Positions 1,498 to 19,837 of a DNA stretch of 20,666 nt are shown piece after piece. The translations under genes and the position numbers were made by a program. How positions within the stretch are numbered: position 1 is the stretch's first letter; every line of letters starts with the position of its first letter. The notes below the pieces were generated by a model. That model was given only the letters and a program-made list of their open reading frames with translations. It had not been told where the DNA came from and ran no database searches. This stretch comes from a virus, in the IMG/VR virus record IMGVR_UViG_3300021335_000116, positions 1 through 20,666 of that record; one strand, 5' to 3'.

Positions 1498-1742
1498 AAG
1501 TTGTCGAAGGAAAGTTCGGTAACAAAGAGAAAGAGATTACCACGTCTGAGTTCCTAGCTGCCTTTGCAGCCAAGGCGCTTCAGTACGAAGAAGAAGGTAG
1601 GGTGGTCAAGGTTGCCGTCGTGATGTACGAAGACGGTGAGGTGTTTGAAGTTGCGTCTAACGAGCAGTACCCGGACGGGGTTTACATGTTACTACAGATG
1701 GCAGCACAGGCAATAATTAACGAGACACTAGGGATAACTTAA
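1494..1742 (+). CDS. Small protein of unknown function
   Basis: An 82-aa protein whose family I do not recognise. It has a helical segment (TSEFLAAFAAKALQYEEEG), a beta-like stretch (VVKVAVVMYEDGEVFEV) and a C-terminal helix (YMLLQMAAQAIINETLG), consistent with a small alpha/beta domain. The GTG at 1494 is preferred over an ATG at 1410: it overlaps the DUF3310 stop in the typical GTGA coupling and has GAAGAG eight bases upstream, whereas 1410 lies inside DUF3310. The stop codon shares bases with the nrdJ start (TAATG), so translation of this gene and nrdJ is probably coupled. Its place between two nucleotide-metabolism genes is the only functional clue. Confidence 0.75.
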   Translation: MKVVEGKFGNKEKEITTSEFLAAFAAKALQYEEEGRVVKVAVVMYEDGEVFEVASNEQYPDGVYMLLQMAAQAIINETLGIT

Positions 1743-3607
1743 TGGACGCATATCAACAGTACATACACAAGTCGAGATACGCACGGTACTTGCCAGCAGA
1801 GCAACGCCGTGAGTCTTGGGAAGAGACAGTAAGTCGTTACGTAGATTACTGGGGGGAGAAGCTGCCTGAAAAAGAACACAAGGAAGTGTTCAAGGCTGTA
1901 CACGATCTGGATGTCATGCCATCTATGCGAGCGTTGATGACCGCTGGCGAGGCACTGGACCGTGACAACGTAGCTGGGTTTAACTGTAGCTACTTACCGA
2001 TCGACCACCCCAAAGCATTCGACGAGATGATGTACGTCTTGATGTGTGGTACTGGTGTGGGCTTCAGTGTTGAACGGCAGTACGTACAAAAGTTACCAGA
2101 AGTAGCGGAGACATTCCATGCAACCGACACAGTTATTAATGTGGCAGATTCGAAGATCGGATGGGCGAAATCGTTTAGGGAGTTGGTATCACTGCTGTAT
2201 TCAGGTCAAATTCCCCAATGGGATACTAGCCGAGTTAGACCTGCAGGTTCCCCGCTCAGAGTTTTTGGCGGTAGAGCATCGGGTCCAGAGCCTTTGCTCG
2301 AACTGTTCCGATTCACAGTTGACCTCTTTCAAGCTGCGGCTGGCCGAAGACTTAGCTCCGTTGAATGCCACGATCTTTGCTGCAAGATTGCTCAAATCGT
2401 CGTCGTCGGAGGAGTCAGAAGGTCAGCACTCATCAGCCTCAGTAACCTCACAGACGACAGACTTCGACGGTGTAAGCACGGTCAGTGGTGGGTAGATAAC
2501 CCCCAACGAGGATTAGCTAACAACTCTGCGTGTTACACAGAGAAGCCAGACTTTGAGGCATTTTTGAATGAGTGGACAAGCCTTTACGAATCCCGATCCG
2601 GAGAGCGAGGCGTCTTTTCTAGAGTGGCTAGTCAAAAGCAAGCTGCAAGAAACGAGCGACGAGATGCTACTTACGATTTTGGAACTAATCCATGTAGTGA
2701 AATCATCCTCCGTCCCTATCAATTCTGCAATCTATCGGAGGTTGTTGTCCGGTCAACCGATACGCTCGCAGACCTCAAACGAAAAGTACGCATTGCGACT
2801 ATCCTTGGAACTCTACAGGCTACCCTGACTGACTTCAGATACCTGCGAAACATCTGGAAAGTAAACACAGAAGACGAAGCACTGCTTGGTGTTAGTCTTA
2901 CTGGTATCATGGATCATCCCATGCTGTCAGGACGAGGAGACAAGAATGAACTCAAGAAGTGGCTCAGAGCCATGCGAGCAGAAGCAGTTAAAACTAATGC
3001 AGAGTGGGCTGATAGGTTGGGCATTAACGTATCTACAGCCATTACTGCTGTTAAGCCTTCAGGCACTGTTAGTCAGTTGGTCGATTCTGCTTCTGGTATC
3101 CATCCTCGTTATTCTGCTCAATACATTCGACGTGTACGTGCAGATGCTCGCGACCCGCTTTGCACCGTCCTAGAGGCCGCTGGTGTCCCTGTAGAGGACG
3201 ATGTGATGTCACCCAGTACACGGGTATTTAGCTTCCCTATCGCGTCTCCTGACGGCGCTGTGACAGCCTCAGAGATGGGTGCTATGGAGCAGTTAGAACT
3301 GTGGGAGATATATCAGGACGAGTGGTGCGAACACAAGCCGTCCATGACGTGCTACTACAGGGACGACGAGTTCTTGGAGGTAGGACAGTGGTTGTACAAC
3401 AAGTTTGACAAGGTGTCAGGCATTAGCTTCTTGCCGTACTCAGACCACACGTACCAACAGGCACCGTACGAGCCGGTGGACAAGAAGACGTACAACCAGT
3501 TGGTGAAGGAGTTCCCGAAGGAAATATCGTGGGATATAGAAGAGGCCAGCGATATGACTGAAGGGTCACAACAACTGGCCTGTACTGGAAACAACTGCGA
3601 ACTTTAA
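1742..3607 (+). CDS. nrdJ: Class II (adenosylcobalamin-dependent) ribonucleotide reductase, monomeric RTPR type
   Basis: This 621-aa enzyme reduces ribonucleotides to deoxyribonucleotides with a B12-derived radical and supplies dNTPs for phage replication. Key residues match the Lactobacillus leichmannii enzyme: C82 (FNCSYLP, for C119), GTGVGFS at 103-109, N316/C318/E320 in NPCSE (for N406/C408/E410), C329 in FCNL (for C419; the 11-residue gap is identical), PSGTV at 439-443, and a tail CxxxxC at C614/C619 (for C731/C736). All residues needed for catalysis are present. It is about 118 residues shorter than the Lactobacillus enzyme, 53 of them between C82 and C318, where the monomer's dimer-mimicking effector region lies. 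It is the last gene of the + operon, translationally coupled upstream by TAATG, and its stop shares TTAA with the convergent gene. No B subunit is needed. The enzyme depends on host cobalamin. Confidence 0.97.
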   Translation: MDAYQQYIHKSRYARYLPAEQRRESWEETVSRYVDYWGEKLPEKEHKEVFKAVHDLDVMPSMRALMTAGEALDRDNVAGFNCSYLPIDHPKAFDEMMYVLMCGTGVGFSVERQYVQKLPEVAETFHATDTVINVADSKIGWAKSFRELVSLLYSGQIPQWDTSRVRPAGSPLRVFGGRASGPEPLLELFRFTVDLFQAAAGRRLSSVECHDLCCKIAQIVVVGGVRRSALISLSNLTDDRLRRCKHGQWWVDNPQRGLANNSACYTEKPDFEAFLNEWTSLYESRSGERGVFSRVASQKQAARNERRDATYDFGTNPCSEIILRPYQFCNLSEVVVRSTDTLADLKRKVRIATILGTLQATLTDFRYLRNIWKVNTEDEALLGVSLTGIMDHPMLSGRGDKNELKKWLRAMRAEAVKTNAEWADRLGINVSTAITAVKPSGTVSQLVDSASGIHPRYSAQYIRRVRADARDPLCTVLEAAGVPVEDDVMSPSTRVFSFPIASPDGAVTASEMGAMEQLELWEIYQDEWCEHKPSMTCYYRDDEFLEVGQWLYNKFDKVSGISFLPYSDHTYQQAPYEPVDKKTYNQLVKEFPKEISWDIEEASDMTEGSQQLACTGNNCEL

Positions 3608-16164: not shown

Positions 16165-17148
16165 TTAGGCAGAAGGTACTGCCAGAACAAAACCAGCTTC
16201 AGGACGATACACCTGAACACCGTAGAGGGTGTCAGCAGTGTACAGAGTAGACAGGTACTCTTGCTTGTACTGAGTCTGAGAACGAACAGCCATCTGTTCA
16301 GCCATAACGATTGCTTCGTTGTGGAACAGCAAAGCCGCACGAGTATCGACAGTGCCAGCAGTGTTGTCAGCAGCTGCCTCAATGGTTGCACAGTTGGCAG
16401 AAACGTAAACGTCTACACCGTACAGGTTACCAATAAGACCACTGTTTACTGACTGACCACTTACAAAGTCAGAAGACACATACCGATCAATACCCATAAT
16501 CGCATTGCGCGTTGCAGGCGGAATAATCAGGTTACGATTTTCCATTGGTACGTTGTTGTCATCCAGCTTTTGGATCATGTCGCGGAAGAAAGCATCCGTG
16601 AAATCATCACCAGCTACCAGAGTGTCATCAGTGTACTGAGTGGTAGTACCACCGTCGTTAAAGAAACAGCCACTGTGTTGGTAGTCAGTAGGTGCTACGG
16701 AGCCTGAGTAGACAATAGCGCCACCGTCACCAAAGCCAGTGCCAGCAGAGTGCAGGTCAGTATCAACCTGTACAGCCAGAGCGTAACCAGCGTCTTCAGT
16801 GTAGAACTGACGCAGAGATGACAATGCTTGTACCTCTACGATGTCCTCAATCAGACGTGAGTACTCAAAGTGACGGTTAATGGTAACCTGCAACTCTGAC
16901 TCTGTGTTGGCAATGATCGTTACCGCAGTATCAGCCGCCTTAGCGTTGGCATCACCACGAGTGGGCTTCGGGATATGAATAACGTCACCCTTCTTGCCAG
17001 TCATAGCGAGACGCTTGACAAGGGGTGCCATCTTCAAGTTCTTTTGATAGGCGGCAATAATTTCGTCGGACCAAATTTCTGGTACAAAAGTTGCCGCTTC
17101 TGTTAGGGCGGTATTACCAGCCGCGCCGGGATAAGTTGCTGTAGCCAT
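16165..17148 (-). CDS. Major capsid protein
   Basis: A 327-aa protein with the HK97-like capsid pattern of T7-like phages. The N-terminus (MATATYPGAAGNTALTEAATF) leads to the classic VPEIWSDEIIAAYQKN and APLVKRLAMTGKKGD, then IHIPKPTRGDANAK (about 55-70). The middle has VDTDLHSAGTG and the C-terminal third has LYGVDVYVSANC, LLFHNEAIVMAEQMAVRSQ, and a beta-strand end (YGVQVYRPEAGFVLAV). Length is near T7 gp10A (345 aa). A strong AAGGAG lies seven bases before the ATG. The order scaffold-then-capsid with a hairpin behind the gene is standard. Confidence is very high. Confidence 0.96.
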   Translation of the reverse strand: MATATYPGAAGNTALTEAATFVPEIWSDEIIAAYQKNLKMAPLVKRLAMTGKKGDVIHIPKPTRGDANAKAADTAVTIIANTESELQVTINRHFEYSRLIEDIVEVQALSSLRQFYTEDAGYALAVQVDTDLHSAGTGFGDGGAIVYSGSVAPTDYQHSGCFFNDGGTTTQYTDDTLVAGDDFTDAFFRDMIQKLDDNNVPMENRNLIIPPATRNAIMGIDRYVSSDFVSGQSVNSGLIGNLYGVDVYVSANCATIEAAADNTAGTVDTRAALLFHNEAIVMAEQMAVRSQTQYKQEYLSTLYTADTLYGVQVYRPEAGFVLAVPSA

Positions 17149-17166: not shown

Positions 17167-17964
17167 CTATTTGACCCGACCTTCTGCGTATGCTTGTAGA
17201 ATCTCATCTGACAAAGCGTTGTATCGGTCTGGGTCGGTTTTCATAAGTTTAATAATGTCAGCACGACGATAGACTTTCCTACGAGATCCTTCTGCTGTAC
17301 CACGAGCGTTGCCTGTTGTTGCAGACTTTACGGCACTCTTACGGGCTGCTTTTTCAGCTTGAGCCGTCTGCTGAACCACTTGATTACGTTCTTTCCAAAG
17401 CGTAAAAAGTTCGTCAGCAGAATCATAATCGTACCCTTGGTCTGCTTCTACAAACAGTTTAGTTCTAACCTTTGATCCTTTGATCCACTCAGCAAACTTT
17501 GGGTCTTGCAAGATAGTATCCATTTCTGGATGGTTAGATTTAAGCTGTGCAAGAGTAGCCTGTTGTTTGTACTGTTGAGTGTAAGCTTCTGCTTCTTTAA
17601 TCTTAGGATGGTTATCAATTGCCCTGTTTACAGCGTTCTGCGGATCTACAAAAAAATCTACTTCTTCGTCTTGTTGTTGCTGTTGTTGAGGTGCTGGTTG
17701 GTTTGAGAGTTCTGTCTGAATGTAACTATCAACAACTTTACGTAACTCACCTACTTCCGTACTCTGTTTGCCAGAAAACTTTTCTAGCTCTTGGTGCATC
17801 TGTACAAGTTCTTCTACAGATTTATTTTGGTACTTTTCTGGAACATCAGGTTCTTGAGGTTGTTCCTCTTCTTGAGGAATCTCTATTGTATCCTGAGTAT
17901 CGAGTTGGTCTGTTGTTTCAAGCTCCTCTTCTGGACGCTCATCAATAATTGTCGCTCTTGACAT
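17167..17964 (-). CDS. Capsid scaffolding protein
   Basis: A roughly 265-aa, highly acidic, helical protein just upstream of the capsid gene, the usual scaffold slot; it guides procapsid assembly and leaves before packaging. The first 45 residues are Glu/Asp/Gln/Pro-rich (ERPEEELETTDQLD), followed by SVEELVQMHQELEKFSGKQ (about 50-68) as in other scaffolds of T7-like phages, a run of six Gln near residue 95, and a helical middle with NHPEMDTILQDPKFAEWIKG. The C-terminal part is basic (SRRKVYRRADIIKLM) and likely binds capsid protein. Two starts are adjacent: GTG at 17967 and ATG at 17964; I chose the ATG. A GGCGGGG stretch lies 11 bases upstream. Confidence 0.92.
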   Translation of the reverse strand: MSRATIIDERPEEELETTDQLDTQDTIEIPQEEEQPQEPDVPEKYQNKSVEELVQMHQELEKFSGKQSTEVGELRKVVDSYIQTELSNQPAPQQQQQQDEEVDFFVDPQNAVNRAIDNHPKIKEAEAYTQQYKQQATLAQLKSNHPEMDTILQDPKFAEWIKGSKVRTKLFVEADQGYDYDSADELFTLWKERNQVVQQTAQAEKAARKSAVKSATTGNARGTAEGSRRKVYRRADIIKLMKTDPDRYNALSDEILQAYAEGRVK

Positions 17965-18005
17965 CACTAAAGTTACCCCGCCTTTTTAGGTTATGGAGAT
18001 TATTG

Positions 18006-18245
18006 TTATTGGGATTGACTCTGGCGAGCTTCCCTACCCTTTCGCCCAGCTTCTTCGTGTTCTCGTACCCACTTCATGTGTCTTCCGGGGAAGTCACCAG
18101 TAGAGCCATCAAGAATACACGGCGTTGCTGAAACGATCTTTGTAGCGTTAGCACCACAACCGCACCTAGTGGCTGTACAAGTACTGTCTACAAAATCTTC
18201 AAAGATGTGTCCGTTAGTACAACGGAAGTCAAATACTTTAATCAT
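18006..18245 (-). CDS. FmdB-like zinc-ribbon protein
   Basis: A 79-aa protein that starts MIKVFDFRCTNGHIFEDFV with probable metal ligands C9, H13, C23, C28 and C30 (CTATRCGCGA), the pattern of a small zinc ribbon related to the FmdB regulatory family. The second half carries the conserved GDFPGRHMKWVREHEEAG motif seen in many marine phage homologues near the capsid genes. The role is not known; it may bind DNA, RNA or a capsid partner. Its start overlaps the upstream 82-aa gene by eight bases. The ribosome-binding site is weak (GAAGAG 11 bases upstream), so translation is probably coupled to the gene in front. Confidence 0.82.
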   Translation of the reverse strand: MIKVFDFRCTNGHIFEDFVDSTCTATRCGCGANATKIVSATPCILDGSTGDFPGRHMKWVREHEEAGRKGREARQSQSQ

Positions 18246-18486
18246 TATTGTTGTTAAGCTCTTCGTAATTATTATTAGTAGTAGATTCTAAATTAAGAAT
18301 ATAGGCTAAGACGTTTATTTGTCCTTTACGCATATATAAATCATTTGCATCTTTAGTAGCTTCTACACTGTTAATCACTAAAGCATTCTGTTGAAGTTCT
18401 TCAGTTAACTGTTTCCAACCATCAGTAGAAAACAGGGTGAAGTAATTATCGTAGTACTGTTGTGTTTCTTGGTCTAGCGAGGCCAT
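18238..18486 (-). CDS. Conserved phage protein of unknown function, first gene after the head promoter
   Basis: An 82-aa protein, MASLDQETQQYYDNYFTLF followed by TDGWKQLTEELQQNA, then DLYMRKGQINVLAYILNLE, ending in a Glu/Asn-rich tail with four Asn. Small helical proteins with the YYxNYFxLFxTDGWKQL pattern appear in front of zinc-ribbon and scaffold genes in marine podoviruses as I recall; function unknown. It is the first gene downstream of a strong predicted sigma70 promoter with a very short leader of about 20 bases. Only a modest AGAGA sequence lies ten bases before the ATG. The Asn-rich tail overlaps the next gene. Confidence 0.8.
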   Translation of the reverse strand: MASLDQETQQYYDNYFTLFSTDGWKQLTEELQQNALVINSVEATKDANDLYMRKGQINVLAYILNLESTTNNNYEELNNNND

Positions 18487-18514
18487 AAGGTTATCTCTTG
18501 TATACTTAAATGTT

Positions 18515-18543
18515 ATTATATCACACTTTTACTTAAAAGTCAA
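18515..18543 (-). promoter_or_regulatory. Sigma70-type extended -10 promoter driving the head genes
   Basis: Read on the minus strand: -35 TTGACT (18543-18538, five of six consensus bases), a 17-base spacer, and a perfect -10 TATAAT (18520-18515) preceded by TGA, giving an extended -10 (TGnTATAAT). Eight A residues (18554-18547) lie just upstream of the -35 box, like a proximal UP element. Transcription should begin near 18507, about 20 bases before the ATG at 18486. It lies at the boundary of the basic small-gene cluster and the 82-aa, zinc-ribbon, scaffold and capsid genes, with the -35 touching the stop codon of the upstream gene. This is as near to consensus as natural promoters get. Confidence 0.88.
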
Positions 18544-18809
18544 GTCTTTTTTTTGGTATTTTTACGCCTTTTTCCTGATGCTGTTACTGCGTGTTTAATC
18601 CTAGCTGGGCCTGTTTTACGCCTAGATGACGAGGCTTTTTCAGCTTTTGTCATCTTTTCAGCCACAGCTTTGGGTCTACAGGAAGGGTACGGACGTTTAG
18701 ACTTAGTGGCAGACTTACGACCACATGGCTTCCCGGTCTTCACGTCAACCCACTCTTCTTTAAACCACTTCTTGAGTGCGGCTCCTTTTTTACTTTTTCT
18801 TACGGCCAC
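18540..18809 (-). CDS. Small basic protein (Lys/Arg-rich, Cys pair)
   Basis: About 89 aa from the GTG at 18809, extremely rich in Lys and Arg. Motifs are AALKKWFKEEWVDVKTGKPCGRK, in which KKWFKEEWVD and GKPCGR are diagnostic, then KRPYPSCRPKAVAEKM and MTKAEKASSSRR. This WF-x-E-x-WVD...PCGR...YPxCRP layout is shared by a small family in marine phages and large viruses (DUF5872 as I recall; uncertain). The two Cys could bind metal. Upstream in-frame TTG at 18836 and GTG at 18833 would lengthen it to 97-98 aa, but would overlap the previous gene by more than 40 bases. I prefer 18809, where the start region (GTGGCCGTAAG) mirrors that of the preceding basic gene. Its stop codon touches the head promoter's -35 box. 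Confidence 0.72.
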   Translation of the reverse strand: MAVRKSKKGAALKKWFKEEWVDVKTGKPCGRKSATKSKRPYPSCRPKAVAEKMTKAEKASSSRRKTGPARIKHAVTASGKRRKNTKKKT

Positions 18810-18948
18810 TTTTTTTACCCCAGTTTTTAGCACCAACCTTGCGGCACTTAGCTACGGCACCAGACGCATACGCAGAAGGCCAGACCTTGTAACGGGCTTT
18901 GACCTTCTTTGCACACACATCGTTTGCTTTTTTCTTTTTAACGGCCAC
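18790..18948 (-). CDS. Small basic protein (52 aa)
   Basis: A 52-aa frame that starts at a GTG, reads MAVKKKKANDVCAKKVKARY, then KVWPSAYASGAVAKCRKVG, and ends KNWGKKSGRKKK. The motif ARYKVWPSAYASGAVxKCRK recurs in small marine phage proteins as I recall, often several copies per genome. CGGAGC lies seven bases before the start. It overlaps the upstream gene by 11 bases and the downstream basic gene by 20. With about 40 percent Lys/Arg and two Cys it is a likely nucleic-acid-binding protein; that is inferred from composition. The GTGGCCGT start motif is shared with the next gene. Confidence 0.78.
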   Translation of the reverse strand: MAVKKKKANDVCAKKVKARYKVWPSAYASGAVAKCRKVGAKNWGKKSGRKKK

Positions 18949-19359: not shown

Positions 19360-19553
19360 GCGTAGTACTCTCTTGTGTAAACTTTAGAGTTTGTAGTTAC
19401 GTGACCGTCGTGGTCGTACACAGTAACATCTGTTGTTGTAGCTCTAACTTTTTCTGTGCCTTCAACTAACTGACCGTCCCATACTTTGTAAGTTACGTGA
19501 CGCTCTGTGTACTGCGTAGGTACAGAACTAATAGGTTGTACTTCTGTTACCAT
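19356..19553 (-). CDS. Small protein of unknown function (65 aa)
   Basis: A 65-aa protein, predicted to be mostly beta-strand: YTERHVTYKVWDGQLVEG, then VRATTTDVTVYDHDGHVTT and SKVYTREYYA. Unlike its neighbours it is not strongly basic. The alternation of Val/Thr/Tyr suggests a small beta-sandwich or a structural decoration-like fold, but I do not recognise a family. Its ATG overlaps the stop region of the upstream gene by seven bases and has no strong ribosome-binding site, so translation is probably coupled. Its stop overlaps the start of the 49-aa gene (ATGA). Confidence 0.72.
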   Translation of the reverse strand: MVTEVQPISSVPTQYTERHVTYKVWDGQLVEGTEKVRATTTDVTVYDHDGHVTTNSKVYTREYYA

Positions 19554-19837
19554 TTAACTTTATCTGCCCAGTAAGCTGCAGACATTTTGCCTTTGCTGAT
19601 GTTTTTTCTGTGCCTTGCTTTAAATGACGCCCGTTTCTTTTTCATACGTTCCGACTCACCAGCCTTTGGTTTCCCTGCTGTCTTGGCGCCTTGCTCACCA
19701 AACCGAATAGTTTTAACTTTGTCGCCTTCCTTAGCAACAACTACGTGGCTTTTCTTAGGGTGATTAGGCGTCCGCTTCGGCTTGTTGTACCCGCTTACTC
19801 CTGCTCGCTCCAGCCTTGGGTCTTTTTTCTTGGGCAT
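19547..19837 (-). CDS. Conserved basic marine-phage protein (96 aa)
   Basis: A 96-aa Lys/Arg-rich protein beginning MPKKKDPRLERAGVSGYNKP, with KRTPNHPKKSHVVVAKEGDK, then IRFGEQGAKTAG and a C-terminal FKARHRKNISKGKMSAAYWA ending DKVKW. This architecture (MPKKKDPRLxRAGVSGxNKPKRTP...IRFGxQG...AYWAxKVKW) is well conserved in marine T7-like phages (DUF6321 by memory, unsure). A GGAGG ribosome-binding site lies nine bases before the ATG. The start is inside the coiled-coil gene, so 74 bases are used in two frames. It has no known function; the strict conservation of both ends suggests a structural or assembly role. Confidence 0.85.
   Translation of the reverse strand: MPKKKDPRLERAGVSGYNKPKRTPNHPKKSHVVVAKEGDKVKTIRFGEQGAKTAGKPKAGESERMKKKRASFKARHRKNISKGKMSAAYWADKVKW

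Follow-up and report, generated by a model that had tools for sequence, protein, structure and literature searches.

The presence of a near-consensus bacterial promoter in front of the capsid genes of a phage raises a question of timing. Such a site lies in the DNA of a virus from the IMG/VR collection (record IMGVR_UViG_3300021335_000116, positions 1 to 20,666; this whole stretch of 20,666 nucleotides is referred to as the window). Read directly from the minus strand, 18543 to 18515, it consists of TTGACT, 17 nt and TATAAT, with the extended -10 element TGTGA. The order along that strand is AAAAAAAA (18554-18547), GAC, the -35 box, a 17-nt spacer (18537-18521) that ends in TGTGA, and the -10 box. 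When compared with sigma70, 11 of the 12 hexamer bases are matched, five of six to TTGACA and six of six to TATAAT, the spacing of 17 nt falls within 16-18 nt, and the TGTGA agrees with TRTGn; this score refers to the general bacterial consensus, and recognition by the sigma70 of the host is assumed from it. Judged from the sequence, transcription is expected to start at the A at 18507 (or the T at 18508), which would give a leader of about 21 nt up to the ATG at 18486. The features of the region are collected in Table 1.

Table 1 Positions of the promoter elements, the neighbouring genes and a related early-strand site.
Feature	Position	Strand	Remarks
-35 box TTGACT	18538..18543	-	C at 18544 just before it, invariant
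Spacer upstream of the extended -10	18526..18537	-	A run next to TRTG constrained (AAAAG, 18530-18526); remainder drifts
Extended -10 TGTGA (TRTGn)	18521..18525	-	TRTG mean pairwise identity 0.96
-10 box TATAAT	18515..18520	-	Assigned from sequence and conservation
Predicted transcription start	18507..18508	-	A at 18507 preferred, otherwise T at 18508; placed from the position of the -10 box
AGAGATAACC motif, consensus AGAGAYAACC	18489..18498	-	Directly before the 82-aa start codon; in nearly all relatives
Lys-rich (basic) ORF upstream of the promoter	18540..18836	-	Stop codon within the -35 box; last Lys codons form the A8 tract
82-aa gene, predicted first gene of the transcript	18238..18486	-	No relative in cultured phages
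Small zinc-ribbon (FmdB-like) protein	18006..18245	-	Overlaps the 82-aa gene
Probable scaffold protein	17167..17967	-	Named from position and composition
Major capsid protein	16165..17148	-	PHROG 267 major head protein, E 1.6e-49
Early-strand site in relatives	G001 1731-1759 (+); G009 2934-2906 (-); G002 16850 (+); G004 14601 (+); G011 17647 (+)		

The window contains 23 promoter-like sites. The site described here ranks best; it is the sole 11/12 match and it has the TG. When the window was shuffled 300 times with a first-order Markov model, the pattern TTGACN-14-TGN-TATAAT never occurred on either strand. The initial annotation had called the site a near-perfect extended -10 sigma70 promoter and the only clear promoter in the window, and the observation is confirmed. 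One other promoter-like site, GTGACA-17-TGG-TACGAT at 963-991 on the plus strand, has counterparts in relatives. It was set aside as a promoter, being located inside a conserved coding stretch (...WCDK..ILWY...) of an endonuclease-like gene, and its conservation is probably due to the encoded protein.

Conservation was assessed in the 150 bases upstream of the aligned first codon of the 82-aa protein, for each locus in IMG/VR and MAG contigs. The best two-box match was scored without requiring the motif, and a promoter was counted as conserved at 12 or more of 14. There were 96 distinct upstream regions, and removal of L262, L265 and L292, which are artefacts of truncated loci, left 93 usable ones. 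The promoter is kept in 76 of these, every time with the 17-nt spacing. Random windows from the same loci have a mean score of about 8, and the best of about 20 random windows per locus usually reaches 9-10, with 11-13 in a few loci. The promoter is also present in the MAG contigs L216 and L217, whose 82-aa proteins are 53% and 44% identical, and the distance from the -10 box to the aligned first codon ranges from 13 to 65 nt across relatives. In a set of 25 divergent sites, any two of which are less than 80% alike, the -35 box has a mean pairwise identity of 0.92, TRTG of 0.96, and the -10 box and the C before the -35 box of 1.00 each. The corresponding values are 0.81 at spacer positions -21 to -18, 0.39 in the outer spacer (-29 to -22) and 0.34-0.52 in the flanks (0.34 downstream). 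In 35 distinct homologous sites, for which the pattern required TTGAC, this pentamer is invariant and the final -35 base is A or T; both sets are selected for consensus-like sites, and the fairer, unselected figure is 76/93. The boxes are thus nearly fixed while leader length, flanks and half of the spacer vary, and the conservation at the same place in related phages that the initial annotation had proposed looking for is found.

That the site is a chance match or a by-product of coding is hardly conceivable. It is true that the -35 box overlaps the stop codon with which the upstream ORF ends, that the A8 tract lies in coding sequence, and that the total of weak promoter-like matches in the window (23) agrees with that expected from shuffles (24.5). 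However, the motif did not arise in the 300 shuffles, it is kept in 76 of the 93 regions, and in other lineages the promoter box lies outside coding sequence; the conservation already refutes this explanation. The promoter is almost certainly real and used, as judged from its sequence and its distribution.

The upstream basic ORF ends with the TGA that lies within the -35 box. The initial annotation had counted the A8 tract just upstream of the -35 box among the promoter features. This part does not stand: the tract is made up of Lys codons belonging to that ORF, and relatives do not conserve it. A reading of the tract as an UP element was rejected since it is coding and not conserved; the region upstream of the -35 box is A-rich, but conserved A tracts were not found there. 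Downstream, the 82-aa protein has hundreds of relatives in IMG/VR, and the genome scan added two distant ones in MAG contigs. The zinc-ribbon assignment is based on a homologue in L083 that matches Zn_ribbon_8 weakly, below the curated cut-off, and the PHROG match of the probable scaffold protein is to a family of unknown function only. The motif AGAGATAACC differs from the standard Shine-Dalgarno sequence. It persists in relatives that do not have the promoter and, because it is kept where the promoter is gone, it is probably a translation signal. Further upstream in the window, at 19547-19837 on the minus strand, a gene for a small basic protein is 72-79% identical in DNA to genes of the Roseobacter phages CRP-1, CRP-603 and CRP-207 and Synechococcus phage S-CBS2. 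This identity exceeds that of the neighbouring late genes, which suggests wide exchange of the gene.

The promoter has a matching partner, which the initial annotation had missed. A stringent form of the pattern mostly gives one or two copies per relative, all on one strand. We refer to the site at 18543..18515 as PL2 and to the promoter that opens the late region in relatives as PL1. PL1 is on the same strand, 5.4-7.3 kb upstream of PL2, at the junction of the divergent early and late genes, and it precedes the terminase and portal genes. Of the 11 long relatives scanned first, 10 have it, and the leader sequence retrieved about 60 further contigs in which it stands beside a conserved leader hairpin. 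In G034, PL1 and PL2 are identical at 29 of 29 positions. Both are present in G009, whose capsid protein is 98% identical to that of the window, and the window's own phage would be expected to have PL1 as well, the window ending before that point.

The PL1 leader has features of its own, located outside the window. Its conserved hairpin, GTTCGTATAGATCCC...GGGACTCATGCGAAC, is found at L098:8717-8831 (-), L099:1222-1337 (+) and in about 60 other contigs. The outer stem is invariant on both strands, its 3' strand being the search pattern and its 5' strand part of the filter, and in some sequences both partners of three inner pairs are changed. A search of seven contig pieces, the hairpin included, gave no match to Rfam at gathering thresholds. 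In the contigs G001, G010, G013 and G019 the PL1 leader has another sequence. On the early strand of relatives, a recurring TTGACA/T-17-TGA-GATAAT/GATACT site lies ahead of the replication genes, and it may represent a middle or early promoter class.

Which polymerase reads these promoters can be approached from the gene content of the relatives. G001 (37020 bp) is probably a complete genome because it has a 99-bp terminal repeat. It encodes a primase-helicase, a family A DNA polymerase (PolA), an exonuclease, a GP88 protein, a terminase and a portal; no RNA polymerase, no unexplained early ORF of the size of an RNA polymerase and no sigma-like early protein were found in it. The phage RNA polymerase family PF00940 had no matches in the records of 38 relatives, with P-SSP7 as positive control in the same search (2.7e-69); most of these records are fragments, so that the absence depends mainly on G001, the only one that looks complete, together with partial genomes. 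The window, a fragment that was outside the PF00940 searches, has no T7-type RNA polymerase among its long ORFs by inspection. As the sampled relatives yielded no T7-type RNA polymerase, the host polymerase is the likely reader of the late promoters. The scan of genomes for a host returned two distant MAG contigs only. Tyrosine integrases (PF00589) were absent from 11 relatives of both module types, with positive controls; the search for this mark of a temperate phage covered tyrosine integrases.

We regard it as very improbable that an RNA polymerase or sigma factor encoded by the phage, and not that of the host, reads the sites. Two matched promoters in one phage do recall the repeated sites of phage-specific polymerases. 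However, the motif is a standard bacterial one, with two boxes at 17 nt, unlike the single-block T7-type or the TATAAATA T4-type sites, a search of the relatives whose control worked found no T7-type polymerase, and none of the early proteins of G001 was recognised as sigma-like.

Scans gave no convincing terminator between the upstream genes and PL2, and because of this PL2 probably adds to read-through from PL1. The initial annotation had offered two implications, that the head genes are boosted separately or that the phage uses host polymerase for its late genes. The comparison of relatives favours both, and they fit together: a T7-type RNA polymerase was not seen in any of the relatives sampled, and PL2 would be a second start for the head genes.

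The promoter is missing in 17 of the 93 regions. In most of these, AGAGATAACC and the start codon come almost immediately after the stop codon that ends the upstream ORF, and the promoter therefore behaves as a separable cassette. L285, with TTGACG-17-TACAAG, and L281, with the -35 box alone, look like decayed copies. Relatives that have lost the boxes but retain the flanking genes, which the initial annotation had taken to count against the promoter, do occur, in two lineages; in the long contigs this loss coincides with replacement of the early module and with loss of PL1. As these two lineages lack PL2 and keep the flanking genes, PL2 is not essential to the head module. A tree of the scaffold protein, which the method does not root, indicates that the promoter changed at least twice, and the presence of the promoter in the outlying L216 and L217 makes loss more likely than gain.

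A different explanation of a clean cassette would be that the element is a conserved boundary sequence for recombination of modules, or another cis-acting site, and not a promoter. It lies between genes, it is cleanly absent in some relatives with the upstream stop almost joined to AGAGATAACC, and the capsid genes are up to 93% identical in both module types. However, the conservation is limited to the boxes and the nearby spacer and does not form a block on which homologous exchange could act, the flanks have drifted, and a boundary sequence gives no reason for the exact 17-nt spacing. We therefore give this explanation very little weight and retain the promoter reading.

All long contigs that lack PL2 (G021-G024 and G035) also lack the PolA family and PL1. 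Every long contig with PolA has the promoters, and every long one with the ERF/NinB/NinG module is without both, the latter type being identified in G023 by matches to ERF, NinB and NinG (NinG just below the curated cut-off) and an ArdC-like protein, and assigned in G021, G022, G024 and G035 from the absence of PolA and partial annotation. The early/late junction pieces of two PL2-less contigs contained no sigma70-like site above the cut-off. Among the contigs examined there is no exception to the link between promoters and early module, which corresponds to one or two independent changes; the test of linkage was not significant, with too few independent pairs, and we consider the link a lead. 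The same contigs (L299-L304, L307-L309) show the head and terminase module joined to an unrelated early module, and no tyrosine integrase was found in them. The capsid proteins of PL2-less contigs are up to 93% identical to that of the window.

These observations return us to the timing of PL2, which could be delayed by the order of DNA entry or by a regulator. PL1 and PL2 are both constrained at -21 to -18, and a spacer repeat, CTTTT-N4-AAAAG, occurs in PL1 and in some PL2 copies. The constraint on some of the spacer bases thus exceeds what the standard consensus requires, which leaves room for a phage regulator. It would be a protein of the PolA-type early module, activator or repressor, that controls a site read by the host polymerase, and its proposed bases are the C before TTGAC, A or T at -30 and -29, the A run at -22 to -19 and sometimes CTTTT-N4-AAAAG. 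Such a protein would explain why a near-consensus promoter is kept for late use, why the spacer varies little more at -21 to -18 than the boxes do and agrees there between PL1 and PL2, and why the long contigs with ERF/NinB/NinG lack both promoters while the long PolA contigs have them. However, no candidate was recognised among the early proteins of G001, many of which have no family, the CTTTT-N4-AAAAG dyad is missing from many PL2 copies, the association with the module corresponds to no more than two independent losses, a number that does not permit a test, and A-rich spacers aid sigma70 promoters directly. We consider this regulator rather improbable. Still somewhat less probable is the further proposal that PL1 and PL2 form a phage-specific class of late promoters, with a bacterial core and a C-TTGAC-WWW ... 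AAAAR-TRTGR-TATAATA element read by a regulator of the PolA module. If this were true, a phage that exchanged its early module would be forced to give up both promoters but would retain its head genes.

We consider it highly probable that the site functions as an extended -10 promoter of the sigma70 type for the host polymerase, within the following scheme of late transcription as a whole. The group to which the phage belongs is uncultured and mostly marine; its replication module is of the PolA type, and a T7-type RNA polymerase gene is not detectable in it. The late genes would be transcribed by the host sigma70 polymerase. PL1, before the terminase and portal genes, would open the minus-strand late region. 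A second transcript would begin at PL2, some 21 nt ahead of the 82-aa gene, and would supplement the read-through from PL1 with mRNA for the 82-aa, zinc-ribbon, scaffold and capsid genes. Transcription from PL2, the host polymerase as its reader and the boost of capsid mRNA are what we infer from comparative sequence data. A promoter near consensus is not always the strongest, as escape from it can be slow.

The type of element is ordinary and well known; its comparative support is unusually strong and the phage group is uncultured. The scheme would give a widespread uncultured marine phage group a plan of late transcription that uses the host polymerase and two near-identical strong promoters, the second of which is placed before the capsid genes. 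Nearly the same capsid genes are found with or without the promoter according to the early module, and this natural comparison makes the timing of late genes in phages without their own RNA polymerase testable.

A limited search of open-licence papers found no literature on this phage group, and it can be compared with several known systems. The group resembles the Autographiviridae (T7-like, P-SSP7) in the replication genes of PolA and primase-helicase type in the window's relatives, but no single-subunit RNA polymerase gene was found in those sampled and the late promoters are of bacterial type. The closest annotated capsid relatives, at about 31% identity, are those of the freshwater cyanopodoviruses Pf-WMP3, PP and A-4L, which are distant kin. 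PL1 and PL2 are like bacterial sigma70 (RpoD) extended -10 promoters in having TTGAC(A/T), a 17-nt spacer, TRTGn and TATAAT just before a gene start; unlike these, they are also constrained at -21 to -18 and have an invariant C before the -35 box. In pelagiphages that lack a phage RNA polymerase, such as Polarivirus skadi (HTVC010P-type), use of the host polymerase has been inferred and sigma70 promoters have been predicted, which lie near the DNA replication genes (PMC10504331). The gene content of the present group differs from that of Polarivirus skadi, its 82-aa protein being without a match in cultured phages, and here the promoters form a matched pair that precedes late genes and whose conservation was measured across many relatives.
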